Part shown: positions 12,749 to 42,694 of the stretch, one piece after another | Layout: every line of letters begins with the position of its first letter | Numbering within the stretch: the stretch's first letter is position 1 | Source of the DNA: Pseudacidovorax sp. RU35E | GTDB lineage: Bacteria > Pseudomonadota > Gammaproteobacteria > Burkholderiales > Burkholderiaceae_C | DNA: 64,000 nucleotides | NCBI RefSeq assembly: GCF_900156165.1 | Contig: NZ_FTMY01000003.1 | Location: 372,001-436,000 of the forward strand | Direction: 5' to 3' | The notes under the pieces: model-generated | The model's input: only the letters and a program-made list of their open reading frames with translations | Database searches by the model: none | What the model was told of the DNA's origin: nothing | Made by a program: the position numbers and the translations under genes

Positions 12749-12952
12749 ATGAATGCCCAACAGATCGAGACCTATGTCGACGCCGCCGCCGCGGCGCTGG
12801 ACCTGCCGCTTGCGCCCGAGCACCGGCCGGGCGTGCTGCGCTACTTCGCGCTCGCCGCCGACATGGCGGCGCTGACCGAGGCCGTGGAGCTGGCACCGCA
12901 CGACGAGTCGGCCCTGCGCTTCGAGCCGGTGGCACCGGGAGCGCAGGCATGA
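12749..12952 (+). CDS. atzG: AtzG-like small subunit (DUF4089)
   Basis: A 67-residue protein with the DUF4089/AtzG pattern: an N-terminal helix pair IETYVDAAAAALDLPLAPEHRPGVLRYFALAADMAAL and a short acidic tail. AtzG is a GatC-like partner needed for stable, active AtzE. The start ATG (12749) follows GGGGGAAG, and the stop overlaps the atzE start (ATGA), as expected for an obligate complex. An earlier in-frame ATG would run through the hairpin repeat and is unlikely. Confidence 0.85.
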   Translation: MNAQQIETYVDAAAAALDLPLAPEHRPGVLRYFALAADMAALTEAVELAPHDESALRFEPVAPGAQA

Positions 12953-17545: not shown

Positions 17546-17573
17546 CCGGCGGCGCACACACAAGGAGTTTTCG

Positions 17574-18638: not shown

Positions 18639-18642
18639 CACC

Positions 18643-20927: not shown

Positions 20928-20944
20928 GCAAGGAGAAAACAGCC

Positions 20945-21625
20945 ATGCGCCTGAACGACGCCCGCCCTTTCCCCTACGACTTCGATGTGGCCCGCACGGC
21001 CCTGGTGCTGATCGACATGCAGCGCGACTTCATCGAGCCCGGCGGCTTCGGCGAGACGCTGGGCAACGACGTGTCGCTGCTGGCGGCCATCGTGCCCGCC
21101 ACGCAGGCCGTGCTGGCCGCCTGGCGCCAGGCCGGCGGCCTGGTCGTGCACACGCGCGAGGCGCACCTGCCCGATCTGTCGGACTGCCCACCCGCCAAGC
21201 GGCTGCGCGGCCACCCGACGCTTCGCATCGGCGACGAAGGCCCCATGGGCCGCATCCTGGTGACGGGCGAGCCGGGCAACCAGATCATCGATGCGCTCGC
21301 GCCCATCGAGGGCGAATGGGTCATCGACAAGCCCGGCAAGGGCGCCTTCCATGCCACCGGCCTGCACGAGCTGCTGCAGGCGCGCGGCATCACGCACCTG
21401 GTCTTCGGCGGCGTGACCACCGAGGTCTGCGTGCAGACCAGCATGCGCGAGGCCAACGACCGCGGCTACGACTGCGTGCTGCTGGAGGACTGCACCGAGA
21501 GCTACTTCCCGCAGTTCAAGGCCGCGGCGGTGGAGATGATCCGCGCCCAGGGCGCCATCGTGGGCTGGACGGCCACCAGCGCGCAGCTGATCGCGGCGCT
21601 GGCGTCGGCGCCGCCGCAGACCTGA
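20945..21625 (+). CDS. isochorismatase-fold hydrolase, BiuH paralogue
   Basis: A 226-residue cysteine hydrolase. The triad is Asp24 (VLIDMQRDF), Lys129 ([10 protein letters not shown]) and Cys162 ([12 protein letters not shown]). It is clearly related to the BiuH-like protein 1.5 kb upstream (shared [18 protein letters not shown] and [11 protein letters not shown]) but lacks the long N-terminal extension and differs around the GGFG loop near residue 33. The pair looks like an old duplication with divergence, so it may use a different ureide, for example triuret or a ureido acid. AAGGAG lies seven bases upstream. Confidence 0.82.
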
Positions 21626-21644
21626 GCCTGCCCGCTACGATCCG

Positions 21645-22379
21645 ATGGTGTCCGCCGCCGTTCCTGCCCGTCCCCCCAAAGCCGCGCCCGCCGAGGCCGA
21701 GCTGCCTTTCCGCTCGCGCGCGGACGAGGTCTACGACCAGCTCAAGCGCGACATCGCCGACTTCCGCCTGGTGCCGGGCGACCGCTTCACCGAGAACGAG
21801 CTGTGCGAGCGCCTGGGCGTCTCGCGCACGCCGGTGCGCCAGGCGCTGATCCGGCTGCAGCAGGAAGGCTATGTCGAGGTGCTGTTCCGCGCCGGCTGGC
21901 GCGTGCTGCCCTTCGACTTCCAGCAGTTCGAGCAGCTCTACGACCTGCGCATGGTGCTGGAGACCACCGCCGTGCATCGCCTGTGCGAATCGGGCCGCGC
22001 GGTGGACCGCGCCCAGCTCGACGCACTGGCCGCCATCTGGCTGGTGCCCGCGGAGCAGCGCAGCAGCGATGCGGCGCAGGTTGCGCGCTGGGACGAGGAC
22101 TTCCATTGCCATCTGGTGGCCGCCGCCGGCAATGCCGAGATGGCGCGCGTGCACCGCGAGGTGACCGACCGCATCCGCATCATCCGGCGGCTGGACTTCA
22201 CGCAGCAGCCGCGCATCGACGCCACCTACGACGAGCACGCCAAGATCCTCAAGGCCGTGCGGGCCAACCGCGGCGATCAGGCCGCCATGATGCTGCGCGC
22301 GCACATCGAGACCAGCCAGTCCGAGGTGCGCAAGATCACGTTGCACCAGGTCTACCTGGCGCGGCAGCAAGGCGGCTGA
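21645..22379 (+). CDS. GntR-family regulator, FCD (FadR) type
   Basis: A 244-residue regulator. An N-terminal winged helix (about residues 24-88, RSADEVYDQLKRDIADFRLVPGDRFTENELCERLGVSRTPVRQAL) is followed by an all-helical FCD effector domain with a His-based metal site candidate (DEDFHCHLV). It is the last gene of the string, 19 bp after the BiuH paralogue and probably on the same transcript, so autoregulation is expected. It is the likely local controller of the allophanate/biuret operon. Confidence 0.88.
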   Translation: MVSAAVPARPPKAAPAEAELPFRSRADEVYDQLKRDIADFRLVPGDRFTENELCERLGVSRTPVRQALIRLQQEGYVEVLFRAGWRVLPFDFQQFEQLYDLRMVLETTAVHRLCESGRAVDRAQLDALAAIWLVPAEQRSSDAAQVARWDEDFHCHLVAAAGNAEMARVHREVTDRIRIIRRLDFTQQPRIDATYDEHAKILKAVRANRGDQAAMMLRAHIETSQSEVRKITLHQVYLARQQGG

Positions 22380-29027: not shown

Positions 29028-29933
29028 TCAGCCGCCGTCTGCACCGAGTGCGGCCAGCCGTTCGCGCAGGAACTCGGCGAAGGCATAGGCGATCACCGGC
29101 AGCTGCCGCCCCCGCAGGCATCCCAGCACCAGCTCACCCTGCGGAAAGGCGCGGTCCTCGATGGCGCGGGCCACCAGGTCGGGCGTCGTGAGGTCGGTTC
29201 CAATGGCCATCTGGAAGGTGATCGACCGCCGGTCGGCCAGGCAGCCGAGCAGGAATTCGAAGCTGTTGCTTTCCACCATGGGCTGGAAGCGGATGGAGCT
29301 GCGCGACAGAAAGCGCTCCAGTAGCTGCCGCCCACCGATGTCGCGGTTGGGCAGCACCAGCGGATAGTCGGCGCAATCGCGCAAGCGCAGCGCGCTGCGG
29401 CCGGCCAGCGGATGCTCGGCATGCATCATGGCCATCAGCCGCTGGCCGGCCACGTCCAGGCGCTGGATGTCCGATTCGGCGGGCAGGTTGAACACCAGGG
29501 CCAGGTCGGTGTCCAGGCTGCGCAGGGCCTCGGCCGCGTGCACATGGTCGCCGATGCGCGCGTCGAAGGCCACCAGCGGATGCGTCTCGCGGAAGGCGGC
29601 GATGGCCGCGGGCAGGAAGCGGGGCGCCAGCGCCTGGCTGGCCACCAGCCGCACCCGGCCGCGGCGCAGGCCCTGCAACTCCTCGATCTCGGAGCGCACG
29701 CGCTCCAGCTCCGCGCCCCGGTCGCGGACATAGCGCACGAACAGCTCGCCCGCGGCCGTGAGCCGCATGCCCCGCGGCAGCCGTTCGAAGAGCGGCGTGC
29801 CCAGCTCCTCCTCGATGTCCTGGATGCGGCGGTTGACCGCCGAGGGCGCCACATGCAGGCGCTCGGCTGCCTGGCGGATGGATCCGATGCGCGCCACTTC
29901 ATCGACGTAGCGCAGCAGGCGCAGGTGGTTCAT
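29028..29933 (-). CDS. LysR-family regulator
   Basis: A 301-residue LysR-type regulator. The winged helix spans residues 1-60 (LRLLRYVDEVARIGSIRQAAERLHVAPSAVNRRIQDIEEELG), followed by a two-lobed effector domain. The start is the ATG at 29933. It overlaps the stop of the upstream XRE-family gene by ATGA, so both regulators are made from one message. Together they are divergent from the long ring-degradation gene string that begins at 30935. Confidence 0.88.
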   Translation of the reverse strand: MNHLRLLRYVDEVARIGSIRQAAERLHVAPSAVNRRIQDIEEELGTPLFERLPRGMRLTAAGELFVRYVRDRGAELERVRSEIEELQGLRRGRVRLVASQALAPRFLPAAIAAFRETHPLVAFDARIGDHVHAAEALRSLDTDLALVFNLPAESDIQRLDVAGQRLMAMMHAEHPLAGRSALRLRDCADYPLVLPNRDIGGRQLLERFLSRSSIRFQPMVESNSFEFLLGCLADRRSITFQMAIGTDLTTPDLVARAIEDRAFPQGELVLGCLRGRQLPVIAYAFAEFLRERLAALGADGG

Positions 29934-30829
29934 GCGCCCATTGTGGTGTCTGCATGGGCATGCAGCAGGCGCGCCAGTTCTGCGCTGGCGGCTGCGCCCT
30001 TCAGGGCCGAATCCCACAGGCGCGCGGCGAGTGTCTCGTGCAGGCGCAACGCTTCCTCGTCCTCGCTGATCATGGCTACGCCGTAGTGCAGGTTGGTCGG
30101 CTCAACGATCCGGAAGGGGCTGGTCACGAGTACGCGGCGCCCGTGCGGCAACTGGACCAGCTGGAAGCCGCTGGTCGGCAGCGGCTGGGTGGTCAGCACG
30201 ACCTGGATGCCCATCGGCGGCGAGGCAATGAGGCCGGCCAGGCGCTCCATTTCGCGCCGCGCGGCGAGCCGCCGGGCGGTGCGCTCGGCCGCGGGCAGGC
30301 GCGGGTGGCCGCCGAGCCCGTGCGTCAGGTAACGCTCGATGTCGCTCACCGGCACGATGTTGACGAGCGCCGGCCGGTTGCGTGTGAAGGCGGCCTTGCG
30401 CTTGGCCAGCAGGTGCATCAGCCGTTCGGCCTCGGCCGGGCTCAGGGCGGTCTGGTCGTCGCGCTGATCGACCAGGCGCTCGGCCAGCGCGGCGTCGTAG
30501 GCGTCCGAGCTCAGCATGTAGGCCTGCGGCCCGAACACCACGGTCATCTGCGTGGCCTCGGCCTCCAGCCGCTGCTGGCGATCGAAGAACAGCATGCCGT
30601 GGGTGATGTACTCGTTGCCCAGGCCGAGCAGGGCCCCGGTGGAGGTTTCGTACAGCCGGGCCAGCCTTTCCAGCACCTCGAGCTTGACCACCTCGCCCGA
30701 CTCGTAGCGGTAGAGCAGCGCGCGGGAGATGCCCGCCGCGCGCGCCACCTGCTCGGTGCTCAAACGCGCATCCTGGCGCCGGCTGCGCAGGCGCTCGCCG
30801 ATGTGGGCGTAGTGGTGCGTGGTGGTCAT
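29930..30829 (-). CDS. XRE-type transcriptional regulator with unknown C-terminal domain
   Basis: A 299-residue protein. Residues 9-65 form an XRE/Cro helix-turn-helix (IGERLRSRRQDARLSTEQVARAAGISRALLYRYESGEVVKLEVLERLA). The remaining ~230 residues have no cupin or peptidase motif that I recognise. They contain a possible ligand domain (IQVVLTTQPLPTSGFQLVQLPHGRRVLVTSPFRI). It is divergent from the alpha/beta hydrolase gene at 30935 and is the best candidate to bind the palindrome at 30884-30896. Confidence 0.83.
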   Translation of the reverse strand: MTTTHHYAHIGERLRSRRQDARLSTEQVARAAGISRALLYRYESGEVVKLEVLERLARLYETSTGALLGLGNEYITHGMLFFDRQQRLEAEATQMTVVFGPQAYMLSSDAYDAALAERLVDQRDDQTALSPAEAERLMHLLAKRKAAFTRNRPALVNIVPVSDIERYLTHGLGGHPRLPAAERTARRLAARREMERLAGLIASPPMGIQVVLTTQPLPTSGFQLVQLPHGRRVLVTSPFRIVEPTNLHYGVAMISEDEEALRLHETLAARLWDSALKGAAASAELARLLHAHADTTMGA

Positions 30830-30934: not shown

Positions 30935-31702
30935 ATGCCCACCATCTCCGTCGACGGGGTGCCCGTCCACTACGCCGAGGCCGGCAGCGGCGAGCGCGCC
31001 ATCGTCTTCATGCACGGCGGCTTCGGCAGCTCCTCTGAACTGTGGGAGCGCACCCTGAAGGCGCTCCCGCCCGGCTGGCGCGGCTATGCCATCGACAACT
31101 TCCTGCGCTCGGCCGCGCCACCCGACGGGTACAGCGTGCAGTCGCTGGCCCGCCGCGTGCGTGGCTTCGTGGATGCGCTGGGCCTCGAGAAGCCGGTGAT
31201 CGGTGGCCATTCGATGGGCGGCGTGGTGAGCCAGATCGCCGCCTCGAACGACCCCGGGCGCTACGGTGGCGTGGTGCTGGTGTGCACCGGCGCCTTCATG
31301 ACCAACCACACGCTGGGCCGTGTGCTGCTGCAGGACCTGCGCGACAACGGCCATGCCAACCTGCGCGAGATCAGTGCGCACTGGTTCCGCGAACTGCCCG
31401 AGGGCTTCTTCGAGGGCTATGTAGAGCGCGCGCAGACGGCGCCGCTGGCAGCCATGATCGACGTGCAGCAGAGCCTGCTCTACACCGACTGCCGGCCGCT
31501 GCTGCCGAAGATCACCGCGCCAACGCTGGTGGTGTTCGGCGCCCACGACGCGGGCCGCACCATCGATCACGCGAACACGCTGCTGGCCGGCATTCCGAAC
31601 AGCCGCCTGGCCCGCATGCCCGACAGCGGGCACACGCCGATGGTCGAGACGCCTGCGGCATTCGACGCCGCGCTGCACGCCTTCCTGCTCGAAACCCACT
31701 GA
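30935..31702 (+). CDS. alpha/beta hydrolase
   Basis: A 255-residue alpha/beta hydrolase. The oxyanion motif is HGGFGSSSELW, the nucleophile Ser in GGHSMGGVVS (about residue 93) and the catalytic His in DSGHTPMVETP. The acid is probably the Asp in GAHDAGR. It has no signal peptide. It belongs to the broad family that contains C-C hydrolases, esterases and amidases. It is the first gene of the 30935-42694 string, directly behind the candidate regulated promoter, so it may act on the imported substrate. Confidence 0.85.
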   Translation: MPTISVDGVPVHYAEAGSGERAIVFMHGGFGSSSELWERTLKALPPGWRGYAIDNFLRSAAPPDGYSVQSLARRVRGFVDALGLEKPVIGGHSMGGVVSQIAASNDPGRYGGVVLVCTGAFMTNHTLGRVLLQDLRDNGHANLREISAHWFRELPEGFFEGYVERAQTAPLAAMIDVQQSLLYTDCRPLLPKITAPTLVVFGAHDAGRTIDHANTLLAGIPNSRLARMPDSGHTPMVETPAAFDAALHAFLLETH

Positions 31703-31713
31703 GGACCTCCACC

Positions 31714-32496
31714 ATGTTCCGACGCTCCCTCCTCGCCCTGGCCGTGGCGGCCGGCGGCTCCTTGCTCACGATGCCGGCCGCGCTGGCCGACACGCTCGAC
31801 GACGTGCAGAAGGCCGGCGTGCTGCGCGTCGCCATCACGCTCGACTACCCGCCTTTCGGCTCGGTCGATGCCAACATGAGCCCGCAGGGCTACGACGTGG
31901 AATTCGCCAACCTGATGGCGGCCGCACTGGGCGTGAAAGCCGAGCTGGTGCGGGTGACGGCCCAGTCCAAGATCCCGACCATGGCCACGCGCAAGGCGGA
32001 TCTGCTGCTCAACATCGGCCGCAACGAAGAGCGCGCCAAAGTGGTGGACTTCACGCAGCTGTACGCGCCTTACTACATCGGCGTGTTCGGCCCGGTCGAC
32101 CAGACCGCCACGGGCGTGGCCGACCTGGCCGGCAAGAAGATCGCGGTGACGCGCGGCACGCTGGAGGACCAGCTGCTCACCAAGATGGCGCCGCCGGAGG
32201 CCGCGATCCAGCGCTATGAGGACCACAGCAACACCATCAGCTCCTTCCTGAGCGGACAGAGCGACCTCATGTCCGTCGGCAACATCGTGGCCGCGGCCAT
32301 CATGGAGAAGAACCCCCCGCGCAAGCCCGAGCAGAAGTTCCTGCTGATGAACTCGCCCGTGTGCGCCGCCGTCACCAAGGGCGAGCAGCGGTTGCTCGAG
32401 CGGATCAACGCCGCCATCACCGAACTCAAGACCAACGGCCGGCTCGCCGCCATGGCCACGCGCTGGCTCAAGCAGCCGCTGCCGGCCAATCTCTGA
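31714..32496 (+). CDS. amino-acid-type ABC receptor without partner genes
   Basis: A 260-residue SBP_bac_3-family periplasmic protein. A signal peptide of about 25 residues (MFRRSLLALAVAAGGSLLTMPAALA) precedes LDDVQKAGVLRVAITLDYPPFGSVDANMSPQGYDVEFANLMAA, the diagnostic family start. No polar-amino-acid permease or ATPase is adjacent, so it must borrow a membrane component or act as a sensor. It follows the hydrolase after 11 bp. The ligand is probably a small polar or amide compound. Confidence 0.85.
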   Translation: MFRRSLLALAVAAGGSLLTMPAALADTLDDVQKAGVLRVAITLDYPPFGSVDANMSPQGYDVEFANLMAAALGVKAELVRVTAQSKIPTMATRKADLLLNIGRNEERAKVVDFTQLYAPYYIGVFGPVDQTATGVADLAGKKIAVTRGTLEDQLLTKMAPPEAAIQRYEDHSNTISSFLSGQSDLMSVGNIVAAAIMEKNPPRKPEQKFLLMNSPVCAAVTKGEQRLLERINAAITELKTNGRLAAMATRWLKQPLPANL

Positions 32497-32508
32497 AGCG
32501 CCGGCGGA

Positions 32509-32529
32509 CCGTTGCCGCAACGGCAACGG
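32509..32529. promoter_or_regulatory. perfect 9-bp inverted repeat, operator or weak terminator
   Basis: CCGTTGCCG (32509-32517) and CGGCAACGG (32521-32529) are perfect inverted arms around CAA, 12 bp after the receptor stop. No T tract follows, so an intrinsic terminator is unlikely; an operator or an mRNA-stabilising hairpin is more plausible. It starts a 97-bp gap within an otherwise tightly packed gene string. Confidence 0.5.
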
Positions 32530-32565
32530 CGCTACCGCGATAAAGCGCCGGAAAGTGAGCGCCAG

Positions 32566-32585
32566 TGGCACGGGCGATGCGTGCC
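32566..32585 (+). promoter_or_regulatory. possible second sigma-54 promoter or inverted repeat
   Basis: TGGCAC (32566-32571), five bases and ATGCG (32577-32581) keep the GG-10-GC spacing of sigma-54 promoters, with an imperfect -12 box. The same bases also form a GGCACG/CGTGCC inverted repeat (32567-32572, 32580-32585). A start near 32592 would leave the ATG at 32594 almost leaderless, which weakens the promoter reading. Confidence 0.28.
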
Positions 32586-32593
32586 CCTGACGC

Positions 32594-33436
32594 ATGCACA
32601 GCGATGAACGCACTTCCGGCACCAAGTTGGACACGGCCCCCGGCGACACCCCCGGCTTCGGCCCCGCGGCCGCCAACCGCTGGCAGTTGCAGGACGGGCG
32701 CCTGAGCCTGGTCCGCACGCCGCCGGCGCCGCGGCCGCTGGCGCTGCCGGCACAGCCCGAATCGCTGGTGATCGACCTGGCCCGCACCGCCCTGGTGGTG
32801 GTCGACATGCAGAACGACTTCTGCCACCCCGAAGGCTGGTTCGGCCAGAAGGGTCTGGACGTGCAGGCCGCGCGCCGGCCCATCCCGGTGCTGCAGGCGC
32901 TGCTGCCCGCCTGGCGCCGCGGGGGCAGCCCGCTCGTCTGGTGCAACTGGGGCATCCGTGCCGACCGGCGCAACCTCGGCCCCACGGTGCAGTTCAAGGG
33001 CAAGCGCACGGCCGAGGGTGTGGGCTACGGCGAGCGCTCGCCCGTCGACCACGGCCCGTCGCTGGTGCAGGGCAGCTGGGGTGCGGCGCTGATCGACGAA
33101 CTCGCGGCCGAGCCCGGCGACATCCTGGTGCACAAGCACCGGCTCTCGGGCTTCTGGGACAGCGAACTCGACAGCGTGCTGCGCAACGCCGGCATCACCA
33201 CGCTGCTGTTCGCCGGCATCAACACCGACCGCTGCGTGTTCTCGACGCTGCAGGACGCGGCCTTCCTGGGCTACGACTGCGTGCTGCTGGAGGACGCCTG
33301 CAGCACCTCGTCGCCCGGCTACGTGACCGATGGCGTGCTCTACCTCGTGCGCCTGCTGCACGGCTTCACCGCCCGCGCCGCCGACCTGGGCGCGGCGCTC
33401 GCCGATCTTTCCGACCTTCCTTCCCAACCCGACTGA
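32594..33436 (+). CDS. isochorismatase-fold cysteine hydrolase
   Basis: A 280-residue hydrolase. The triad Asp is in VVVDMQNDFC (about residue 70), the Lys in LVHKHRLSGF and the Cys in GINTDRCVFSTL. The first 55 residues are an extension that is polar and Pro/Ala-rich. It differs from the BiuH pair of the other operon: the KxxRxSGFWDSELDS block is the form found in ureidoacrylate hydrolase RutB and related amidases. A ureido-acid or carbamate substrate is therefore plausible. No strong ribosome site precedes the ATG at 32594, so the start is uncertain. Confidence 0.82.
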   Translation: MHSDERTSGTKLDTAPGDTPGFGPAAANRWQLQDGRLSLVRTPPAPRPLALPAQPESLVIDLARTALVVVDMQNDFCHPEGWFGQKGLDVQAARRPIPVLQALLPAWRRGGSPLVWCNWGIRADRRNLGPTVQFKGKRTAEGVGYGERSPVDHGPSLVQGSWGAALIDELAAEPGDILVHKHRLSGFWDSELDSVLRNAGITTLLFAGINTDRCVFSTLQDAAFLGYDCVLLEDACSTSSPGYVTDGVLYLVRLLHGFTARAADLGAALADLSDLPSQPD

Positions 33437-33448
33437 GGAGCCTTCGCC

Positions 33449-34498
33449 ATGACCTCGACCCTCTCCCTGTTCGCCCGCCGACTGCGGCCTCTGCTCGGCG
33501 CCGCCGCCCTGGCGCTGGCCGCGCTGCCGGCCGCTGCGCAGACGCCCATCAAGCTGGTGCTCAACTGGAAGTACGAAGGCCCGCAGGCCTGGTTCTTCCT
33601 GGCGCAGGACCGTGGCTATTTCAAGCAGGAAGGCCTGGACGTCACCATCGACCAGGGCGAGGGCTCGGCCGCCTCGATCCCCAAGGTCGCGGCGGGCACC
33701 TACCAGGCCGGCTTCGGCGACATGAACGCGCTGATCGACCTGGCCTCCAAGCGGCCGGCCGATGCGCCGGTGGGCGTGTACATGCTCTACAACACGCCCC
33801 CCTTCGCCGTGGTGGTGCGCAGCGACAGTCCCATCAAGACGCCGAAGGACCTCGAAGGCAAGACCCTCGGCGGCCCCGCCAACGACGGCGCGCTCAAGCT
33901 CTTCCCGGCCTTCGCCAAGCTCGCCAAGATCGACCCCGCCAAGGTCACGATCTCGAACATGGCGCCCAACCTGCGCGAGCAGATGCTGGTGCGCGGCCAG
34001 ATCGACGGCGCCTTCGGCTATGTCACCACCGTGAGCTTCAGCGCCCGCGGCATGGGGCTGGACCCGGCCAAGGACCTGCGCTTCATCCGCTACGGCGACC
34101 ACGGCATGGACCTCTATGCCAACACCGTCTTCTTCTCGCGCAGCTTCGTGCAGGACAAGCCCCAGGCCGTGACCGGCTTCGTGAAGGCCCTCAACCGCGC
34201 CATCAAGGACGTGCTGGCCAACCCCGACGCCGGCATCGACGCGGTGATGAAGCGCGAGCCGCTGCTCAAGCGCGACGTCGAGAAGGAGAAGCTCCTGGCC
34301 ACGCTCAAGAACGACATGAGCCATCCCGAGATCGCCCGCATCGGCCTGGGCGACGTGGACGACGCGCGGCTGAAGAAGGCCATCGGCATCGTGGCCGAGG
34401 CCAACCAGCTGCCGCGCCAGCCCGAGGTGGGCGAGGTCTTCGACCGCCGTTTCCTGCCGGCGCGCGCCGAGCGCCCCTCCAGCACCGTCGCGCCCTGA
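33449..34498 (+). CDS. NMT1/THI5-type ABC receptor (copy 1)
   Basis: A 349-residue periplasmic receptor. The signal peptide (residues 1-30, ending LPAAAQ) is followed by [42 protein letters not shown], the core signature of NMT1/THI5-like proteins, some of which bind pyrimidines. It is a clear paralogue of the receptor at 39723-40784 and shares the C-terminal [10 protein letters not shown] block (here [10 protein letters not shown]). It is separated from the single permease/ATPase pair by three enzyme genes. Two receptors sharing one membrane complex would widen substrate range. Confidence 0.88.
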   Translation: MTSTLSLFARRLRPLLGAAALALAALPAAAQTPIKLVLNWKYEGPQAWFFLAQDRGYFKQEGLDVTIDQGEGSAASIPKVAAGTYQAGFGDMNALIDLASKRPADAPVGVYMLYNTPPFAVVVRSDSPIKTPKDLEGKTLGGPANDGALKLFPAFAKLAKIDPAKVTISNMAPNLREQMLVRGQIDGAFGYVTTVSFSARGMGLDPAKDLRFIRYGDHGMDLYANTVFFSRSFVQDKPQAVTGFVKALNRAIKDVLANPDAGIDAVMKREPLLKRDVEKEKLLATLKNDMSHPEIARIGLGDVDDARLKKAIGIVAEANQLPRQPEVGEVFDRRFLPARAERPSSTVAP

Positions 34499-34536
34499 CC
34501 ACTCCGACAAGCCCCCTGAAGAAAGAAGAGACCGCC

Positions 34537-35328
34537 ATGGATCTGCAACTGCGCGACAAGGTCGCCATCATCACCGGCCCGGCCAAGGGCATGGGCGCCG
34601 CCATCACCCTGGCCTTTGCCCGCGAAGGCGCCAAGCTGGTGCTGGCCGGCCGCGACACCGCCGCCATCGAACCCGTGGCCGCCGAGGCCCGCGCGCTGGG
34701 CGTGCCAGCCCAGGTCGTGGCCTGCGACCTCACCGTCTCCAGCCAGACCGAGGCGCTGGCCACGGCGGCGCTCGCCGCCTTCGGCCGCATCGACATCCTG
34801 GTCAACGTGGCCGGCGGCTCCGGCCCCATCGGCAAGACCGGCTGGGAGACCACGACGGAAGAGTTCGACGAGATCGTGCGCCTGAACATGACCGGCTGCT
34901 TCAACACCATCCGCGCCGTGATGCCCGCGATGGTGGAGCAGCGCAGCGGCAAGATCGTCAACGTGGGCGGCACCTTCGGTCTGCGGGGGCGCGCCGGGCG
35001 CATGGCGTACTCGGCGTCCAAGTGGGGCCTGCGCGGCATCACCAAGAGCTTCGCGCTGGAGGCCGGACCGCACAACATCAACGTCAACAACGTCGCACCG
35101 GGCATGGTCGACGGGCCGCGCTTCCGCGAGAAGGTGTGCGCCAACATGGCCCAGCGCCTGGGCATCACGCTGGAAGAAGCCATGCAGCGCCATGCGGCCG
35201 ACTACGCACTGCGGCGCGTCTCCACCGACACCGACATCGCCAACGCCTGCCTGTTCATGGCCAGCGAGGTGTCGCGGCAGATCACCGGCGCCGACCTGCC
35301 GGTCGACGGCGGCTGGGCCGCGCTGTGA
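34537..35328 (+). CDS. SDR-family protein lacking the usual catalytic Ser
   Basis: A 263-residue SDR. The cofactor motif TGPAKGMG spans 13-20, NVAG is near 90, and Tyr158 and Lys162 lie in YSASK. The residue 13 before Tyr, normally the catalytic Ser (NxSS or NIGS), is Gly145 in NVGGTFG; Thr146 is next to it and might substitute. It ends with the usual ITGADLPVDGGW. It may oxidise or reduce a ring hydroxyl or oxo group before ring opening by its neighbours. The ATG follows an AAGAAGAG purine stretch. Confidence 0.85.
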   Translation: MDLQLRDKVAIITGPAKGMGAAITLAFAREGAKLVLAGRDTAAIEPVAAEARALGVPAQVVACDLTVSSQTEALATAALAAFGRIDILVNVAGGSGPIGKTGWETTTEEFDEIVRLNMTGCFNTIRAVMPAMVEQRSGKIVNVGGTFGLRGRAGRMAYSASKWGLRGITKSFALEAGPHNINVNNVAPGMVDGPRFREKVCANMAQRLGITLEEAMQRHAADYALRRVSTDTDIANACLFMASEVSRQITGADLPVDGGWAAL

Positions 35329-35345
35329 GCACGGGAGCGAACACC

Positions 35346-36818
35346 ATGCGACCCGAAGTCGACCTCGTCATCCGCGGCGCGAGCGTGGTCTCGCCCGACG
35401 CCATCGTGCCGGCCAGCGTGGCCATCGCCGGCGAGCAGATCGTGGCCGTGGGCCACGACGACACCATGCCGCCCGCGCGCGAGGAACTGCGCGCCGATGG
35501 CCTGTTCCTGCTGCCCGGCGCCATCGACAGCCATGTGCACTTCCGCGACCCCGGCTATCCGCACAAGGAGACCTGGCGCACCGGCTCGGCCGCCGCGGCG
35601 CTGGGCGGCGTGACCACCGTCTTCGACATGCCCAACACCTCGCCGGCCACCGGCACGGTGGAGGCGCTGCGCCTCAAGCAGAAGGCGGCCGAGGCCTCGT
35701 ACTGCGACTTCGGCATCCACGGCCTGCTGGGCGACGACACCATCGAGCGGCTGGAGGAGCTGCTGGAGGCCGGCGTCACCAGCTTCAAGGCCTTCGTGGG
35801 CAACACCTTCGGCAACCTGCCCGCGCCCACGGACGGTGCGTTGCTGGAGGGCTTCGAGACGCTGGCGCCGCTGGGCATCCGCACCGTGGTGCATGCCGAG
35901 AACTCGTCCATCCTCTTCCGCCGCCAGAAGAAGATGCAGGACGCCGGCCGCATCGACGCGCTGGCGCACCTTGCTGCGCGGCCCGCCGTGGCGGAGATCG
36001 AGGCCATCGGCCGCGTGCTCACGCTGGCCGAATGGACCGGCGCGCGGGTGCACATCGCGCACCACAGCGCGGCGGATTCGCTCTTCCTGCTGCGCGAGGC
36101 CAAGCGCCGAGGCGTGGACGTGACGGCCGAGACCTGCCCGCAGTACCTGCTGCTCAACACCGAGCACATGCGCAAGCTGGGCGGCGTGATGCGGCTGAAC
36201 CCGCCCATCCGCGAGCCGCGCCACAACCAGCCGCTGTGGGACGCGCTGATGGACGGCACGCTGGACATGATCGCCACCGACCATGCGCCGCACGCGCCCG
36301 AGGAGAAGACGCGCGAGAGCATCTGGGACTGCGACTGCGGCTTCCCGGGCGTGGAGACGCAGATGCCGCTGATGCTCACCGAGGTCAACCGTGGCCGCGC
36401 CTCGCTGATGGACTACGTGCGCTGGAGCGCCGTCGCGCCGGCCAGGGCCTGGGGCCTGTATGGCACCAAGGGCGTGATCGCGTCCGGCGCCCATGCGGAC
36501 ATCGCCATCGTCGACATGGCGCGCCAGGGCGTGCTGTCGCAGAACCGGCTGCAGAGCATCAGCCGCATCTCGCCCTGGAACGGCCGGCCGGTGCAGGGCT
36601 ATCCGCTGCATACGCTGCTGCGTGGGCGCTTCGTCATGCGCGAAGGCCGGCTGGTGGAAGACGCCGTGGGCTGGGGCCGTTCGGTCAAGGCGGTGCAGAA
36701 GATGCCCACGCCCCGGCCGCGCAACACCGAGCACTACAGCCGCGCCATCCTGCAGACGCCGCCCGGCGTGCCGTCCACCGCGGTGCCGGTGGGCGAGGTG
36801 GACTGGAGCGCCGAATGA
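35346..36818 (+). CDS. cyclic amidohydrolase, dihydroorotase/allantoinase/hydantoinase type
   Basis: A 490-residue amidohydrolase. Metal ligands His63 and His65 are in DSHVHFRDPG, the probably carbamylated Lys148 in TSFKAFVGN, further His in VVHAEN and IAHHSA, and the Asp in ATDHAPHAPEEK. This is the class I dihydroorotase/allantoinase/dihydropyrimidinase core. The dedicated arrangement next to an AtzD-type gene speaks for a catabolic ring opener of five- or six-membered cyclic ureides rather than biosynthetic PyrC. Its stop overlaps the next start (ATGA). Confidence 0.88.
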   Translation: MRPEVDLVIRGASVVSPDAIVPASVAIAGEQIVAVGHDDTMPPAREELRADGLFLLPGAIDSHVHFRDPGYPHKETWRTGSAAAALGGVTTVFDMPNTSPATGTVEALRLKQKAAEASYCDFGIHGLLGDDTIERLEELLEAGVTSFKAFVGNTFGNLPAPTDGALLEGFETLAPLGIRTVVHAENSSILFRRQKKMQDAGRIDALAHLAARPAVAEIEAIGRVLTLAEWTGARVHIAHHSAADSLFLLREAKRRGVDVTAETCPQYLLLNTEHMRKLGGVMRLNPPIREPRHNQPLWDALMDGTLDMIATDHAPHAPEEKTRESIWDCDCGFPGVETQMPLMLTEVNRGRASLMDYVRWSAVAPARAWGLYGTKGVIASGAHADIAIVDMARQGVLSQNRLQSISRISPWNGRPVQGYPLHTLLRGRFVMREGRLVEDAVGWGRSVKAVQKMPTPRPRNTEHYSRAILQTPPGVPSTAVPVGEVDWSAE

Positions 36819-37942
36819 GCGCCCGCGTCCCCCAGCATGTGGACGCCCATGTGGTGCCCTGCCGCGGGCCCGGCGACCTGAGTGGCGTGCAGGCCCTCGT
36901 CGAGGCCGGCGTGCTCGAACCGCGCGACATCGTCGCGGTGATGGGCAAGACCGAGGGCAACGGCTGCGTCAACGACCACACGCGCGACTTCGCCGCCATG
37001 GCCTGGTGCCACTACCTGGCGCCCCACCGCGGCTGCACGCCGCAGGCGGTGCATGCGCAGGTGGCGCTGGTGATGTCCGGTGGCACCGAGGGCGTGCTGT
37101 CGCCGCACTTCACCGTCTTCACCCGCCGCGCGGCATTGCCGCATGAAGTGGTGGAGGGCGAGAAGCGGCTGGTGGTCGGCATCGCCCACACGCGCGACTT
37201 CGCGCCGGAGGAGATGGGCCGCCAGGCGCAGATCGCCGCCACGGCCGAGGCGGTGCAGGCCGCCATGCGCGACGCCGGCATCGACAGCGCGGCCGACGTG
37301 CACTTCGTGCAGGTGAAGTGCCCGCTGCTCACTTCGGCCAAGGTGGACGACGCGCTCGGCCGCGGGTTGGACACGGTGACCCGCGACACCTACGAGTCGA
37401 TGGGCTACTCGCGCGCCGCCTCGGCGCTGGGCGTGGGCGTGGCGCTGGGCGAGATCGACCCGGCCCGCGCGACCGATGCCGCCGTGCTGCACGACACGTC
37501 GCTGCATTCGGCGCGCGCCTCGGTGTCGGCCGGCATCGAGCTGGAGGGCAACGTGGTCATCGTGCTGGGCGAGGCCACGGGCAGTGCCTCGCCGCTGCGC
37601 ATCGGCCATGCGCTGATGCGCGACGCCGTCGACACTGCCGGCCTGCGCACGCTGCTGCGCGAGCACTTCGGGCTGGACCCGGAGGCCGATGCGGCGCTCA
37701 TCGCGCAGCAGCTGGTCAACCTGCTCGCCAAGGCCGAGGCCAGCCCCGACGGCCGGGTGCGCGGCCTGCGCCACACCATGCTGAACGACTCGGACATCCA
37801 CTCCACCCGTCACGCCCGTGCCGCCGTCGGCGCGGTGCTGGCCTCGGTGGCCGGCCGCACGGCGCTGTACGTCTCGGGCGGTGCCGAGCACCAGGGCCCG
37901 CCCGGCGGCGGCCCGGTGGCGGCGCTGGTGCGCGTGGGCTGA
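36815..37942 (+). CDS. atzD: ring-opening amidohydrolase, cyanuric acid hydrolase (AtzD) / barbiturase family
   Basis: A 375-residue member of the small AtzD/barbiturase family. The first Lys-Ser pair is Lys45 (VMGKTEGNG) and Ser88 (MSGGTEGVLSPH). Other blocks that match AtzD as I recall it are HFVQVKCPLLTSAK, DTYESMGYSRAASALG, RHTMLNDSDIHSTRHARA and YVSGGAEHQGPPGGGP. It opens cyanuric acid to carboxybiuret, or barbiturate to ureidomalonate. AtzE/G, BiuH and AtzF in the same window favour cyanuric acid; the dihydropyrimidinase-like neighbour leaves barbiturate possible. It is coupled to the cyclic amidohydrolase by ATGA. Confidence 0.87.
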   Translation: MSARVPQHVDAHVVPCRGPGDLSGVQALVEAGVLEPRDIVAVMGKTEGNGCVNDHTRDFAAMAWCHYLAPHRGCTPQAVHAQVALVMSGGTEGVLSPHFTVFTRRAALPHEVVEGEKRLVVGIAHTRDFAPEEMGRQAQIAATAEAVQAAMRDAGIDSAADVHFVQVKCPLLTSAKVDDALGRGLDTVTRDTYESMGYSRAASALGVGVALGEIDPARATDAAVLHDTSLHSARASVSAGIELEGNVVIVLGEATGSASPLRIGHALMRDAVDTAGLRTLLREHFGLDPEADAALIAQQLVNLLAKAEASPDGRVRGLRHTMLNDSDIHSTRHARAAVGAVLASVAGRTALYVSGGAEHQGPPGGGPVAALVRVG

Positions 37943-37964
37943 CACCTCTTTCGCGGGAACCTCC

Positions 37965-38834
37965 ATGAGCCAGAGCTTCATCCAACTCTCCGACGTGATG
38001 CTGCGCTACGGCGGCGGCACCATCGCCCTGGACCACACCACGCTGGGCATCGACCGTGGCGACTTCGTCGCGCTGGTCGGCCCCAGCGGCTGCGGCAAGT
38101 CCACCATCCTCAAGCTGCTGGCCGGCCTGCTGCGTCCCACCTCGGGCGCCGTCATCGCCGGCGGGCGCGAAGTGGGGCCGGCGGGTGCCCGGCCCGTGGC
38201 GGCCGGGCGGCCGGCGCTGCGCATCGGCCTGGCCTTCCAGAACCCGACCATGCTGCCCTGGCTCACGATCCGCGAGAACGTGATGATCCCGCTGAAGATC
38301 GTCGAGCCCTTCCGCCAGGATTACGCCCGCAAGAAACGCGGCGAGTACGCCGAGCGCGCCGACGCGCTGCTGGCCCAGGTGGGCCTGCGCGGCTTCGGCG
38401 ACAAGCGGCCCTGGCAGCTGTCGGGCGGCATGCTGCAGCGCGCCTCGCTGTGCCGCGCGCTGGTGCACCAACCCGAGCTGCTGCTGCTGGACGAGCCTTT
38501 CGGCGCCCTCGACCAGTTCACCCGCGAGGAGCTGTGGGACATCATGCAGACGCTGTGGATGACCCAGCGGCCCACCGTGCTGCTGGTGACGCACGACCTG
38601 CGCGAGTCGGCCTACCTGGCCAACCGCATCTGCGTGATGAGCGCGCGGCCCGGCCGCATCCTGGAGACGCGCGACGTGGACTTCGCCCGGCCGCGCACGC
38701 TGCAGTCCAGCTACGACCCCGCCTTCGGCGCGCTGGTGCAGCAGCTGCGCATGCGCATCGCCGAGGCGCGCTGCGAGGGCGACGCGACGCCCGCGCCCGT
38801 GGCGGTGCCCGCGCTGCAGGAGGTGGTGGCATGA
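37965..38834 (+). CDS. ABC ATPase of NMT1-type importer
   Basis: A 289-residue ATPase. Walker A is GPSGCGKST (about residue 41), the Q-loop FQNPTMLPW, the signature LSGGMLQRA, Walker B LLLLDEPFGALD and the switch His in LVTHDLRES. The insert [18 protein letters not shown] before the Q-loop is longer than in most SsuB/TauB relatives. The C-terminal tail is Ala/Pro-rich. It overlaps the permease start by ATGA and serves the receptors at 33449 and 39723. Confidence 0.88.
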   Translation: MSQSFIQLSDVMLRYGGGTIALDHTTLGIDRGDFVALVGPSGCGKSTILKLLAGLLRPTSGAVIAGGREVGPAGARPVAAGRPALRIGLAFQNPTMLPWLTIRENVMIPLKIVEPFRQDYARKKRGEYAERADALLAQVGLRGFGDKRPWQLSGGMLQRASLCRALVHQPELLLLDEPFGALDQFTREELWDIMQTLWMTQRPTVLLVTHDLRESAYLANRICVMSARPGRILETRDVDFARPRTLQSSYDPAFGALVQQLRMRIAEARCEGDATPAPVAVPALQEVVA

Positions 38835-39622
38835 AGACCGGCCTGTCGCCCCTGGCGCGCCAGCGCCTGCTCTCCGGCCTGGCGCTGGTCGGCTTCTTCG
38901 TGGCGTGGGAGCTCATCTGTCTGGCCACCGGCATCTCGGACCTGGTGCTGCCGCGGCCCAGCCAGATCGCCCGCGTGCTGATCGAGCGCATGCCGCTCCT
39001 GTGGCCGCACACGGTGCAGACGCTCTACACCACGCTGCTGGGCTTCGCGCTGGGCGTGGCGGCGGGCATCGTCATCGGCGTGGGCATCGGCTCGTCGCGG
39101 CTGGCCTACGACGTCACCTATCCGCTGCTGGTGGGCTTCTCCAGCATTCCGAAGGTGGCGGTGGTGCCGCTGTTCGTCGTGTGGTTCGGCGCCGGCACCG
39201 TGCCGGCGGTGCTGACCTCGATGGTCATCAGCATCTTCCCGGTGGTGGTCAACGTGGCCACGGGCCTGGCGAGCACCGAGCCTGAATTGGAGGACGTGCT
39301 GCGCGTGCTGGGCGCGCGCAAGCGCGACATCCTCTGGAACGTGGGCCTGCCGCGCGCCATGCCCTACCTGTTCGCCTCGCTCAAGATCGCCATCACGCTG
39401 TCCTTCGTGGGCACGGTGCTGTCGGAGACCGTGGCCTCCAACCGCGGCATCGGCACCGTGATGATGATCGCCAGCGGCAACTTCGACGTGCCGATGGTGT
39501 TCGCCGGCCTCTTCCTGCTGGCGGCCATGGGCGTGGTGCTCTATGCGCTGTCGGCGCTGGTGGAGCGGCGCGTGACCGGCTGGTCGCAGCGCAAGACCGA
39601 CCTGGCGGCCACGGGCGCCTGA
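38831..39622 (+). CDS. ABC permease of NMT1-type importer
   Basis: A 263-residue BPD_transp_1 permease with about six membrane helices and the EAA loop [29 protein letters not shown] around residue 156-185. It has the length and layout of SsuC/ThiX-like permeases. It starts inside the end of the ATPase gene. A 100-bp gap with a short repeat follows before the second receptor gene. Confidence 0.88.
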
Positions 39623-39645
39623 GATGCGGGTCGGTGAACCCCACA

Positions 39646-39672
39646 TCGTTCAGGCTGAGCCTGTCGAAGCCG
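39646..39672. repeat. short palindromic repeat of the CAGGCTxAGCCTG type
   Basis: CAGGCT (39651-39656), G, AGCCTG (39658-39663) is a perfect palindrome inside a sequence reading CGTTCAGGCTGAGCC then TGTCGAAGCC. From memory, this is a dispersed REP-like intergenic repeat in many Pseudomonadota. It lies between the permease and the second receptor in the operon and may affect local mRNA stability. Confidence 0.55.
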
Positions 39673-39722
39673 GGGCACCCGCTCGCCAAAGCCCTTCTTC
39701 TTTCGACTTCCAAGGAGCTTCC

Positions 39723-40784
39723 ATGTCCCGCTTCCTCCCCCGTCGCGCCGCTGGCCTGGCGCTGTCGGCCCTGTCCCTGCTGATGGCCCTGGGCGCCACG
39801 CTGGTGCCCGCGCCGGCCGCCGCGCAGGCCGAGACCCCGATCAAGTTCGTCCTCGACTGGAAGCTGCAGGGCGTGCACGCCTGGTACTACCTCGCGCAGG
39901 ACCGGGGCTACTTCGCCCGCGAGAAGCTGGCCGTCACCATCGACCAGGGCGATGGTTCGGCCGCCACCGTCACCAAGATCATGGCCGGCGCCTACCAGGC
40001 CGGCTTCGGCGACGTGAACGCCATCGTGCAGAACGCCGCCGCCAAGCCCGGCCAGGCGCCGGTGATGGTCTACATGCTCTACAACCGCGCGCCCTTCGCG
40101 CTGATCGCCAAGGCCGACGGACCGATCCGCACGCCCAAGGACCTGCAGGGACGTACCGTCGGCACGCCCGCGGGCGGGGCCGCGGCCCGCATGTTCCCGG
40201 TGATCGCGGCGCGCACCGGCATCGACGCCGCCAAGGTCACCTGGACCAACGTCGCGCCCAACCTGCAGGAGCAGCTGCTGCTCAAGGGCCATGTGGATGC
40301 CGCGGCCGTGTTCTCGGTCACCAGCTACATGAACCTGGTGGCGCAGGGCATCGACCCGGACAAGGACATCCGCTGGTTCCACTACGGCGACTACGGCGTC
40401 GAGCTCTACGGCAACGGCGTGATGGTGTCTCAGCAGCTGCTGCGCGAGCGGCCCGAGGCCGTGGCCGGTCTGGTGCGGGCGATCAACCACGCGGTGCGCG
40501 ACACCATCGCCGACCCCGACGCCGCCATCGCCGCGCTGGTCAAGCGCGAGCCGCTGCTCAACAAGGAGCTGGAGAAGCGCCGGCTGCTCTACACGCTCAA
40601 GACCGTCATGCTCATGCCCGAGGTGACCACGCAGGGCCTGGGCGACGTGAGCGATGCCCGCTTCGCCCGCGGCTTCCTGCAGCTCAAGGAGGCCTTCGAC
40701 CTGCCGCGCGTGCCCACGGCCGCCGAGGTCTTCGACCGCCGCTTCCTGCCGCCGCTGGCCGAGCGCACGGTGGCCAAGCGATGA
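39723..40784 (+). CDS. NMT1/THI5-type ABC receptor (copy 2)
   Basis: A 353-residue receptor with signal peptide [20 protein letters not shown]... ending near residue 37 (AAAQA). The mature start [27 protein letters not shown] parallels copy 1 at 33449 almost position by position, and both end in [10 protein letters not shown]-type blocks ([13 protein letters not shown] here). It lies directly after the permease, so it is probably the original partner. The ATG at 39723 with AAGGAG upstream is chosen over one at 39624 that would read through the repeat. Its stop overlaps the amidohydrolase start (ATGA). Confidence 0.9.
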
Positions 40785-42238
40785 GCGACACCGCCACCGT
40801 CCTCGACTGCGCCTGGCTGCTGGCCGAGCCCGGTGCGGCCTCCGCGCAGCGGGACAGGCGCATCCGGCTCGATGGCGGTGTCGTGTCCGCCATCGAGGCC
40901 CTGCCTGCCCCGGTGCCCGGCCGCCGCCGGCTGGCCCTGCCGGCGCTGGCCAATGCGCACGACCATGCGCGCACCGTGCGCAGTGCCACGCTGGGCGCCT
41001 TCGGCCAGCCGCTCGAAGGCTGGCTGCCCTTCCTGGGCGTGGTGCCGGGCATGGACCCATACCTGTGCGCCGCGACCTCCTTCGCCCGCTCGCTGCGCAA
41101 CGGCGTGGTGGACCTGATGGTGCACTACACCCGTGTGCAGGGCGGCCTGCCCTATGTCGACGAGGCAGCGGCCGTGGGCCGGGCCGCGCGCGACGTGGGC
41201 GTGCGCATCGGCTTTGCCGTCGCCATGCGCGACCGCCACGGGCTGGGCTACGCGGATGACGGGGCGGTGCTGGCCGCGCTGCGCCCGGCCATCCGCGACG
41301 ACATCGCCCGCCGGCTGTCGGCGCCGTCGGTGCCGCCCGCGCAGCAGCTTGCGCTGGTGGAAGAAGTCGCGCAGCGCTTCGCCGACGAAGGGCTCGGCGC
41401 CCATGCGGATCTGCAGTACGGCCCCACCGGCGTGCAGTGGTGCAGCACGCCGCTGCTCGAAGCCATCGCGCAGGCCTCGGCCGACACCGGCCGCCGCGTG
41501 CACATGCACCTGCTGGAGACGCAGTACCAGCGTGCCTGGGCCGATGCCGCGCATCCGGGCGGCATCGTGCGCTTCCTGGACGACATCGGCCTGCTCGGCC
41601 CGCGGCTCACGCTGGCGCACTGCACCTGGGCGCGGCCGGAGGAGCTGGCCCTGATCGCCGAACGTGGCGCGACCATCGCGGTCAACACCAGTTCCAACCT
41701 GGGCCTCCAATCGGGCATCGCCCCGATGGCGCAGATGCTGGCGAGCGGCTGCCGCGTCGCCATGGGCCTGGACGGCATGGCCTTCGATGAGGACGACGAC
41801 GCCCTGCGCGAGGCACGCCTGGCCTATGCGCTGCACCGCGGCTGGGGCTACGACACCACCATGACGCCGGCCCAGCTCTGGCGCTTCGCCTCGCGCGGGC
41901 GCATCGCACCGGGCGAGCGGGCGGATATCGTGCTGCTCGACTGGGACGCGCTGGACGACGACGCCCTGTTCGACGACGTCGATCCGCTGGACCTGCTGCT
42001 CGCCCGCGGCAGCGGCCGGCACGTGCACACCGTCATCGCCGGTGGCCGCGCCGTGGTCGAGGCCGGCCGCGTGCAGGGCGTGGACGAGGTCGCCCTGCAG
42101 GTCGAGCTGCGGACGCGCATGCGGGCGGCCCTGGCAACGGATACTGCCCAGGCCGGCTGGCGTCGCACCGTCAAGGCCTTCGCCGAGGACATGGCGCCCT
42201 TCTGCCGCGACGGCCGCTTCCTGGGCGGCTGCTGCTGA
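40781..42238 (+). CDS. ATZ/TRZ-type amidohydrolase (metal-dependent deaminase/dechlorinase family)
   Basis: A 485-residue amidohydrolase of the ATZ/TRZ, guanine and 8-oxoguanine deaminase superfamily. Metal ligands are the HDH of [10 protein letters not shown] (about residue 63-67), His in [10 protein letters not shown], His in LTLAHCTW and the Asp in [13 protein letters not shown]. Members remove amino, alkylamino or chloro groups from triazines, pyrimidines and purines. Here it would act just before ring opening by the AtzD-type enzyme. The leaving group cannot be inferred. It is coupled to receptor copy 2 by ATGA. Confidence 0.87.
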
Positions 42239-42268
42239 CCCTTCTCCTTTTTCCAGAATCCTTCTTTC

Positions 42269-42694
42269 ATGACCCGTATCCGCATGCAGGCCGCCGGCTT
42301 CGACTTCGTCGCCGAGACCCATCCCGACGCGCCGCAGACCGTGGCCGCCTTCCTGCAGCTGCTGCCCTATCGGCAGAAGCTCATCCATGTGCGCTGGAGC
42401 GGCGAAGGCTGCTGGGTGCCGTTGGGCGAGTTCCGCCTGACCAACGAGGGCACGCCGGTGGGCTTCGAGAACCACACCAGCCACCCGTCGCGCGGCGACG
42501 TGCTGTTCTACCCGGGCGGCTACAGCGAGACGGAGATCATCCTGGCCTATGGCGCCTGCAGCTTCGCCAGCCGCATGGGCACGCTGGCCGGCAACCACTT
42601 CCTCACCATCGTCGAAGGCCGCGAGCACCTGCCCGAGCTGGGCCGGCGCGTGCTGTGGGAAGGCGCGCAGGACGTGGTGTTCAGCCTGGCCTGA
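42269..42694 (+). CDS. DUF3830 family protein
   Basis: A 141-residue cytoplasmic protein with the DUF3830 (cyclophilin-like fold) pattern: an early PQTVAAFLQLLPYRQKLIHVRWSGE block, HPSRGDVLFYPGGYSETEIILAYG, and FASRMGTLAGNHFLTIVEG. No catalytic residues are established for the family. It is often found beside hydantoinase and other cyclic-amide genes, so an accessory or isomerase-like role in the same pathway is inferred. It is the last gene of the string, 30 bp after the amidohydrolase and 8 bp from the convergent HDOD gene. Confidence 0.83.
   Translation: MTRIRMQAAGFDFVAETHPDAPQTVAAFLQLLPYRQKLIHVRWSGEGCWVPLGEFRLTNEGTPVGFENHTSHPSRGDVLFYPGGYSETEIILAYGACSFASRMGTLAGNHFLTIVEGREHLPELGRRVLWEGAQDVVFSLA

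Follow-up and report, generated by a model that had tools for sequence, protein, structure and literature searches.

In a 64,000-nucleotide stretch of the Pseudacidovorax sp. RU35E genome (contig NZ_FTMY01000003.1, positions 372,001 to 436,000; hereafter, the window), 12 consecutive genes of the + strand form a gene string at positions 30935-42694. We tentatively read it as a composite operon that may join a core module, apparently undescribed, to an AtzD module belonging to the known route from cyanuric acid through biuret; this reading is a real possibility that we hold short of conviction. A first-pass annotation of the same DNA had listed an alpha/beta hydrolase, a receptor, several ring-degradation enzymes, an ABC importer and a DUF3830 protein here. 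All the named genes are present on the + strand, and two NMT1-type solute-binding proteins were added to them. That annotation had proposed conserved gene order in other genomes as its own test. It turned out that the order is kept across many genera; therefore, the gene string did not arise by chance.

The core comprises a RutB-like cysteine hydrolase with an isochorismatase fold (32594..33436), an NMT1/THI5-like solute-binding protein (SBPa, 33449..34498; Pfam NMT1, 135.6 bits), a short-chain dehydrogenase/reductase (SDR, 34537..35328; adh_short, 176.2 bits), a dihydroorotase/allantoinase-like cyclic amidohydrolase (DHO, 35346..36818), an ABC ATPase (37965..38834), an ABC permease (38831..39622) and a DUF3830 protein (42269..42694; Pfam, 107.7 bits). 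AtzD (36815..37942) is encoded directly behind DHO. A second NMT1-type solute-binding protein (SBPb, 39723..40784; Pfam NMT1, 121.5 bits) and an ATZ/TRZ-type amidohydrolase, AHY (40781..42238; Amidohydro_1, 100 bits), a frequent partner of the core, are encoded between the permease and DUF3830. Pfam family scans back 10 of the 12 operon proteins, both NMT1-type proteins included. The scans covered these ten; the ATPase and permease were named from the sequence and from orthologs annotated as ABC transporter ATP-binding protein (in Skermanella and Azospirillum) and ABC transporter permease. The ATGA overlaps, described at first pass as frequent, occur at 3 of the 11 junctions (DHO/AtzD, ATPase/permease and SBPb/AHY, four bases each), while the other eight junctions have gaps, of 11-38 bases at six and of 97 and 100 bases at two.

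Conservation was assessed by a scan with the DHO protein, which gave 77 loci. Dropping those with a DHO below 55% identity left 66 bacterial loci, and dropping those with less than 4.5 kb on either side left 49. Some genomes appear under two locus numbers (for example, L035 and L058), and the 49-locus count uses one set only. Many of the surveyed genomes were assembled from metagenomes, where a missing gene may reflect a gap; related genomes are not independent. Among the 49 well-flanked loci, the SDR is present in 48 (directly upstream of DHO in 46), SBPa in 45, the RutB-like enzyme, ATPase and permease in 44 each, DUF3830 in 41, SBPb in 39, AtzD in 37 (directly behind DHO in 34) and AHY in 33. 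With identities of at least 34%, a LysR-type regulator is found on the opposite strand in 40 of them, and in most loci its gene is the immediate upstream neighbour of the core; in the window it lies divergently at 29028..29933 on the - strand. The operon is carried by Variovorax, Xenophilus, Rubrivivax, Limnohabitans, Pigmentiphaga, Verticiella and Halopseudomonas. On a Skermanella rosea plasmid the order is LysR, and then SBP, SDR, DHO, ATPase, permease, SBP, amidohydrolase, ring-opening amidohydrolase, FmdA-type amidase and DUF3830. In two Azospirillum plasmids this set is split into two arms and lacks the ring-opener; the search for an AtzD relative covered the plasmids of these strains and found none. 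Azoarcus and Methyloversatilis have only SDR, DHO, DUF3830 and AHY.

AtzD can be assigned with the most detail. Its match to the cyanuric acid hydrolase model NF052395 reaches 520.4 bits (cut-off 360), and in the PDB it is closer to cyanuric acid amidohydrolase 4bvq (412.9 bits) than to barbiturase 5hwe (294 bits). It shares 57.1% identity with its counterpart in Pseudomonas sp. ADP. Three Ser-Lys dyads and R195, T321, R325, G345 and G346 (AtzD numbering) are all present at window residues 45-356, as located by motif. According to the section of PMC3758960 that treats these positions, barbiturases differ at the last five, with the signature Asn195, His321, Lys325, Val345 and Ser/Ala346. We rejected a barbiturase on the scores and on these five positions, each of which holds the cyanuric acid hydrolase residue. 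Thus, judged by its sequence, AtzD probably opens cyanuric acid. The first-pass proposal of a triazine, pyrimidine or hydantoin-like substrate holds for this one enzyme, and as a triazine.

Genes for the later steps lie upstream at 8130-22379, all features described here being on the + strand. AtzF allophanate hydrolase (8130..9821) scores 738.7 bits to TIGR02713 (cut-off 511.05), an AtzE family amidohydrolase (12949..14367) scores 674.9 bits to TIGR02715 (cut-off 425.75), and BiuH biuret hydrolase (18643..19362) scores 419.4 bits to NF050097 (cut-off 370). Before atzE there is an open reading frame of 67 amino acids (12749..12952), which we take to be a possible AtzG-like small protein. A second BiuH/TrtA-like cysteine hydrolase (20945..21625) reaches 260.8 bits to the BiuH model, below its cut-off, and is followed by a GntR-type regulator of the biuret cluster, named from its sequence (21645..22379). 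BMP-type ABC genes are also within this region. Directly before biuH, a formamidase-family protein (17574..18638; NF009803, 568.6 bits, cut-off 406) is possibly TrtB, judging by its position and by the cluster content given in the relevant part of PMC12625717. Rhizobium leguminosarum likewise has a formamidase gene ahead of those for an isochorismatase-family hydrolase and AtzD.

AtzD and the biuret enzymes also co-occur in 34 chosen genomes. BiuH exceeds its cut-off in 13 of the 16 genomes whose operon includes AtzD, in 5 of 7 with AtzD elsewhere and in 2 of 11 without AtzD, the baseline in this family being 38 of 150. The difference between AtzD-bearing and AtzD-free genomes (18/23 versus 2/11) gives a Fisher p of 0.002, a value to be read with the genomes not being independent and several of the 11 being metagenome bins. 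AtzF is matched at E up to 1e-120 in 22 of the 23 AtzD-bearing genomes and in 6 of the 11 others (over the cut-off in five of these six). We considered biuret as the product of the core; it is not favoured, since only 2 of the 11 AtzD-free genomes have BiuH over the cut-off, although the six AtzF matches speak against rejecting it. In three relatives (L039, L043, L045), AtzD orthologs of 71-75% identity lie inside or beside a biuret cluster, and the 19-20 kb fetched around them hold no core genes. The cluster with AtzD in L039 adjoins xth-pyrE, a chromosomal neighbour that also follows the operon of the window.

The cyclic amidohydrolase of the core, DHO, passes the dihydroorotase subfamily model TIGR00857 (322.3 bits, cut-off 279.05) but reaches no equivalog among the 25 families shown. 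Its metal ligands H63, H65, K148, H183, H239 and D312 are each kept in 69 or 70 of 70 sequences, and R67, N97 and H316 are invariant (70/70). The latter three are also found in 8 of 9 distant DHO loci (L113 is also among the 70); L119 is without the Arg and Asn in the aligned place. We take R67, N97 and H316 to be the residues that bind a substrate carboxylate; of their counterparts in human CAD, the Arg and Asn are seen in the alignment and the His is presumed. The DHO motifs HVHFRDPG and MPNT match HVHLREPG and MPNT of human CAD, while the aligned motifs are HVHFNEPG in allantoinase 3hm7 and HVHIIDMD and MPIT in L-hydantoinase 1gkr. R67 is absent from a hydantoinase and from a Bacillus allantoinase. 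On the strength of these clamp residues, a ring bearing a carboxylate is the favoured DHO substrate. A biosynthetic dihydroorotase was rejected: the genome has a class II PyrC (456.3 bits, cut-off 292.95), and because of this separate enzyme DHO is not needed for biosynthesis.

The RutB-like enzyme scores 141.9 bits against RutB TIGR03614 (cut-off 377.95) and 117 bits against the BiuH model (cut-off 370). It keeps the Asp/Lys/Cys triad, and the biuret-binding K145, T171 and Q215 are replaced by Leu, Asn and a position without Gln. Both identities, RutB and BiuH, were rejected on these scores and residues. An excerpt of PMC5806882 describes how N-carbamoyl-aspartate was caught as a covalent adduct on the Lys142Ala variant of BiuH; this suggests that the isochorismatase fold can attack compounds of this type. 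In the SDR, the position of the catalytic Ser is occupied by Gly in 68 of 69 sequences and by Cys in one, with Asn, Tyr and Lys kept in 69/69; the pattern is the same in 9 of 9 distant loci. N117, G145, T146, Y158 and K162 are conserved in the SDR, and two PDB alignments show Ser at the place of Gly145, so the protein departs from the classical Asn-Ser-Tyr-Lys set. The missing Ser makes us favour a non-classical reaction, such as the reduction of a C=N or C=C bond.

AHY had been called a ring deaminase or dehalogenase. The scores do not support this label as given: AHY is an ATZ/TRZ-type amidohydrolase that is below every curated cut-off among 23 NCBIfam families (the best, 112.7 bits against a cut-off of 543). 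DUF3830, found in 28 of 398 genomes, has many invariant polar residues and a predicted cyclophilin-like fold (predicted local distance difference test, pLDDT, 79.7, with a weak stretch at 84-104), the best structural match being 3kop, followed by the Pictet-Spenglerase KslB. In L193, DUF3830 is beside PuuE allantoinase and a fusion of OHCU decarboxylase with HIU hydrolase (UraD-HIU), both over their cut-offs, and L189, L194 and L203 have a similar context as judged from protein starts. In all, 17 stretches around DUF3830 or SDR matches were fetched, and the contexts within L196 to L198 were left aside. DUF3830 may thus be a cyclophilin-fold protein tied to ureide or purine catabolism. No paper on this family was found in the open-licence literature searched.

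According to the composite model, the NMT1-type ABC importer of the core would bring in a small N-heterocycle. AHY, where present, would probably take off an amino group, and the SDR would shift the redox state of the ring, with reduction of a C=N or C=C bond favoured. DHO would then hydrolyse the resulting cyclic amide while gripping a carboxylate beside the ring NH, a grip that points to a substrate resembling dihydroorotate or aza-orotate. From the N-carbamoyl product, the RutB-like hydrolase would release an amino acid, CO2 and ammonia. In the second module, AtzD would open cyanuric acid to carboxybiuret/biuret, and BiuH, AtzE and AtzF, whose genes are 17-29 kb upstream, would turn the biuret products into ammonia and CO2. 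The two modules may often be found together because of a common source, such as oxidised purines, or a common importer. For the core we infer the substrate, the direction of the SDR and the order of steps, and our best model from the protein sequences is an acidic (aza)pyrimidine or ureide ring that would be reduced, hydrolysed to a carbamoyl acid and cut by the RutB-like enzyme.

The most serious rival to the composite operon is a single linear pathway, in which AtzD opens cyanuric acid that AHY, SDR, DHO and the RutB-like enzyme have produced by trimming a substituted triazine or aza-pyrimidine. We consider it somewhat unlikely. The close linkage speaks for it, since atzD overlaps DHO by four bases and directly follows it in 34 of the 49 loci, and AHY is present in 27 of the 37 AtzD-bearing loci. 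On the other hand, AtzD is missing from 12 of the 49 loci, and AHY is present in 6 of these 12. Twenty genomes have a DHO locus in which AtzD does not directly follow DHO; a search at E 0.001 found no AtzD relative in 11 of them. Only four of these 11 assemblies hold the RutB-like gene, SBPa, SDR, DHO, ATPase and permease in the locus; three of them are metagenome bins (L082, L102, L104) and one is a symbiont assembly (L097). The rest are partial sets or cut contigs, and the AtzD-free isolates of Methyloversatilis and Azoarcus hold only the reduced set noted above. G650 and G755, which have the SDR-DHO pair and 100% completeness, are also without an AtzD relative. Several observations weigh against our separation of the two modules. 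Seven of those 20 genomes that bear no bin label have a full core. The symbiont L097 is one, and the other six, all ordinary isolates (L077, L083, L090, L091, L106, L116), keep an AtzD relative in the locus or elsewhere (6/6). The complete genome G700, which has SDR, DHO, ABC and AHY genes, also has an AtzD relative of 47% identity; in a further set of 11 genomes or records, AtzD relatives were found in two, G700 and the bin G825.

The history of AtzD bears on the same question. For a tree, we excluded matches that contained a stop or had fewer than 300 aligned residues, which left 76 rows; thinning of near-identical rows then gave 63 sequences, 40 in the module and 23 outside. The in-module label needs five changes on this tree, at least three of them forced by well-supported branches. 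Both figures hold when L132 and L138, which are near contig ends and whose label is unsure, go uncounted, and also in a careful tree of 58 rows made without five long rows; a single change is found in 0 of 200 bootstrap trees. The AtzD of Skermanella and that of Rhizobium carry a warning from the tree program, being long branches that join each other. The changes may be gains or losses. The position of AtzD varies, as it follows DHO, DUF3830 (L091) or AHY (Skermanella), and because of these different places we read the changes as separate arrivals. Such repeated arrivals also argue for the single pathway. Thus, two ring openers may, as was proposed at first pass, act in one pathway, and the two activities are clearly connected. 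With the composite operon as the preferred reading, AtzD is probably a close partner of the core that takes cyanuric acid from the same source or importer.

What the core itself degrades can be read in other ways, which differ in the role of DHO. It may be an aerobic pathway for orotate or oxonate (5-azaorotate), also undescribed, with reduction, a catabolic dihydroorotase and decarbamoylation by the RutB-like enzyme, to which AtzD was added more than once through a shared origin in oxidised purines; we regard this as unlikely. An allantoin or ureide pathway, with DHO as allantoinase and the RutB-like or an FmdA-type enzyme cutting a later ureide, seems quite unlikely, and yet some of the evidence that counts against our carboxylate-ring substrate is in its favour. 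DHO misses the AllB model TIGR03178 by only 7 bits (351.2, cut-off 357.85), and its Skermanella ortholog, annotated allB, passes it with 375.5 bits. The best matches of the predicted DHO structure (pLDDT 94.2) are allantoinase 3hm7 and an L-hydantoinase, with dihydroorotases lower, so by fold and sequence DHO is at least as close to those enzymes as to dihydroorotase. The clamp is not exclusive either: 1gkr shares the His at position 316, and 3hm7 shares the Asn at 97. DUF3830 accompanies PuuE and UraD-HIU hydrolase in other genomes, as described above. The RutB-like gene is absent from 5 of the 49 loci and an FmdA-type amidase occurs in some clusters; for this reason the last step is not fixed. 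Against allantoin, 3hm7 has Asn and Ser where DHO has R67 and H316, the scans of ten operon proteins revealed no enzyme for allantoate or ureidoglycolate, and we know of no place for an SDR in the allantoin route. Degradation of hydantoins or dihydropyrimidines, with DHO of the D-hydantoinase/dihydropyrimidinase type and the RutB-like enzyme as an N-carbamoyl-amino acid hydrolase, is very unlikely in our judgement. L-hydantoinase 1gkr is the top PDB match of DHO by sequence, and a hydantoinase-A gene is near a distant SDR-DHO pair in L190. However, DHO scores 301.5 bits against the dihydropyrimidinase model TIGR02033 (cut-off 393.25), and a proper dihydropyrimidinase, lacking all three clamp residues, is encoded elsewhere in the genome (L240, 533.5 bits).

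The second module resembles described systems. Like the cyanuric acid cluster atzDGEHF of Pseudomonas sp. ADP and the biuret route through AtzD, BiuH and AtzF, the window has AtzD, AtzE, AtzF and BiuH. Unlike in atzDGEHF, atzD is apart from the rest, inside an operon with DHO, SDR, a RutB-like enzyme and an ABC importer of its own. The region 8130-22379 agrees with the triuret/biuret cluster (trtA, trtB, biuH, atzF, bmpA-nupABC, gntR) as outlined in portions of PMC7948467 and PMC12625717: it has BiuH, the BiuH/TrtA-like hydrolase, a BMP-type ABC set, GntR and AtzF. It differs from that outline in that TrtA and TrtB are assigned by position and similarity only and in the addition of AtzE and an NMT1-type ABC set. 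The core shares an isochorismatase-type ureido hydrolase and a cyclic amidohydrolase with the Rut pathway and reductive pyrimidine catabolism. It differs in the RutB score below the cut-off and in the lack of an oxygenase gene in the operon (no search for RutA was made in the rest of the genome). To our knowledge, SDR and DUF3830 are foreign to both pathways. In the anaerobic orotate fermentation of Clostridium oroticum, orotate is reduced by a flavoprotein, the ring is opened with dihydroorotase and N-carbamoyl-aspartate is cleaved. The proposed logic of the core matches this fermentation and differs from it in the SDR without a catalytic Ser and in the proteobacterial hosts.

The core module is apparently undescribed in the open-licence literature searched, where a prior mention is possible. 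In that literature we found nothing on oxonic acid together with cyanuric acid, and no bacterial orotate catabolic operon was among the matches listed, as judged by titles and the openings of abstracts. PMC13054789, seemingly relevant to AHY, gave no gene context at the terms searched. The first-pass suggestion of an undescribed ring-degradation system thus stands as a conserved operon for which no description was found, but not for the AtzD route, which is known and has its later enzymes at 8130-22379. The natural origin of cyanuric acid is poorly understood, as stated in a passage of PMC12342508. A conserved operon that repeatedly pairs a cyanuric acid hydrolase with a second ring-opening module is a lead to this origin, and it gives DUF3830 a ureide context.

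Distant SDR-DHO pairs have other neighbours. In L187 and L190 these are 2-oxoglutarate oxygenases, hydantoinase A and a D-Glu cyclase-type protein, while L088 has a Rieske oxygenase and L103 has FmdA. This suggests an oxidised N-ring as the entry compound. Haloarchaeal DHO relatives (36-39% identical) have no core partner above 34% identity, and a RutB-like match of 33% is found in three. In Methyloversatilis (L088:4452-8800), the Rieske oxygenase and a pyridine nucleotide-disulphide reductase are between SDR-AHY and SDR-DHO, and this genome has no AtzD relative. A LOG-like TIGR00730 gene occurs in 16 loci (for example, L083:13256-13882), mostly between the permease and DUF3830, and its 16 members form one cluster; none was noticed in the window operon. 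Its place near these genes might point to nucleotide-derived bases as the source.

The first two genes of the string, which had been taken as operon parts, turned out to be accessory. The alpha/beta hydrolase (30935..31702, + strand; Abhydrolase_1, 80.4 bits) is found in 5 of the 49 loci, directly behind DHO in one of the loci (L113), and the family-3 solute-binding protein (31714..32496, + strand; SBP_bac_3, 100 bits), which had been called a receptor, is found in four. They are accompanied by a divergent XRE-family regulator, named from its sequence (29930..30829, - strand; 4 of 49 loci). The promoter scan gave 0 sites, and the terminator scan gave 6 sites against a shuffled mean of 3.1. After the operon, pyrE lies at 44463-45161 (183.5 bits, cut-off 106.8). 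Both pyrE and xth are present in 20 fetched loci, some of which are the same genome fetched twice; this recurrence indicates a fixed chromosomal place of the operon in this group. The genome also has a second AtzD-family gene in a cluster of its own on contig C14 (L051:6703-16804), with Gln at AtzD position 321. Its neighbours, named by the look of their sequences, are PuuE-like, racemase-like and AtzH-like proteins, an AtzE-like amidase, an FAD monooxygenase and an NMT1-type ABC set. Relatives of cyanuric acid hydrolase were found in 132 of 72,556 plasmid records and in 17 of 399 genomes of this family.

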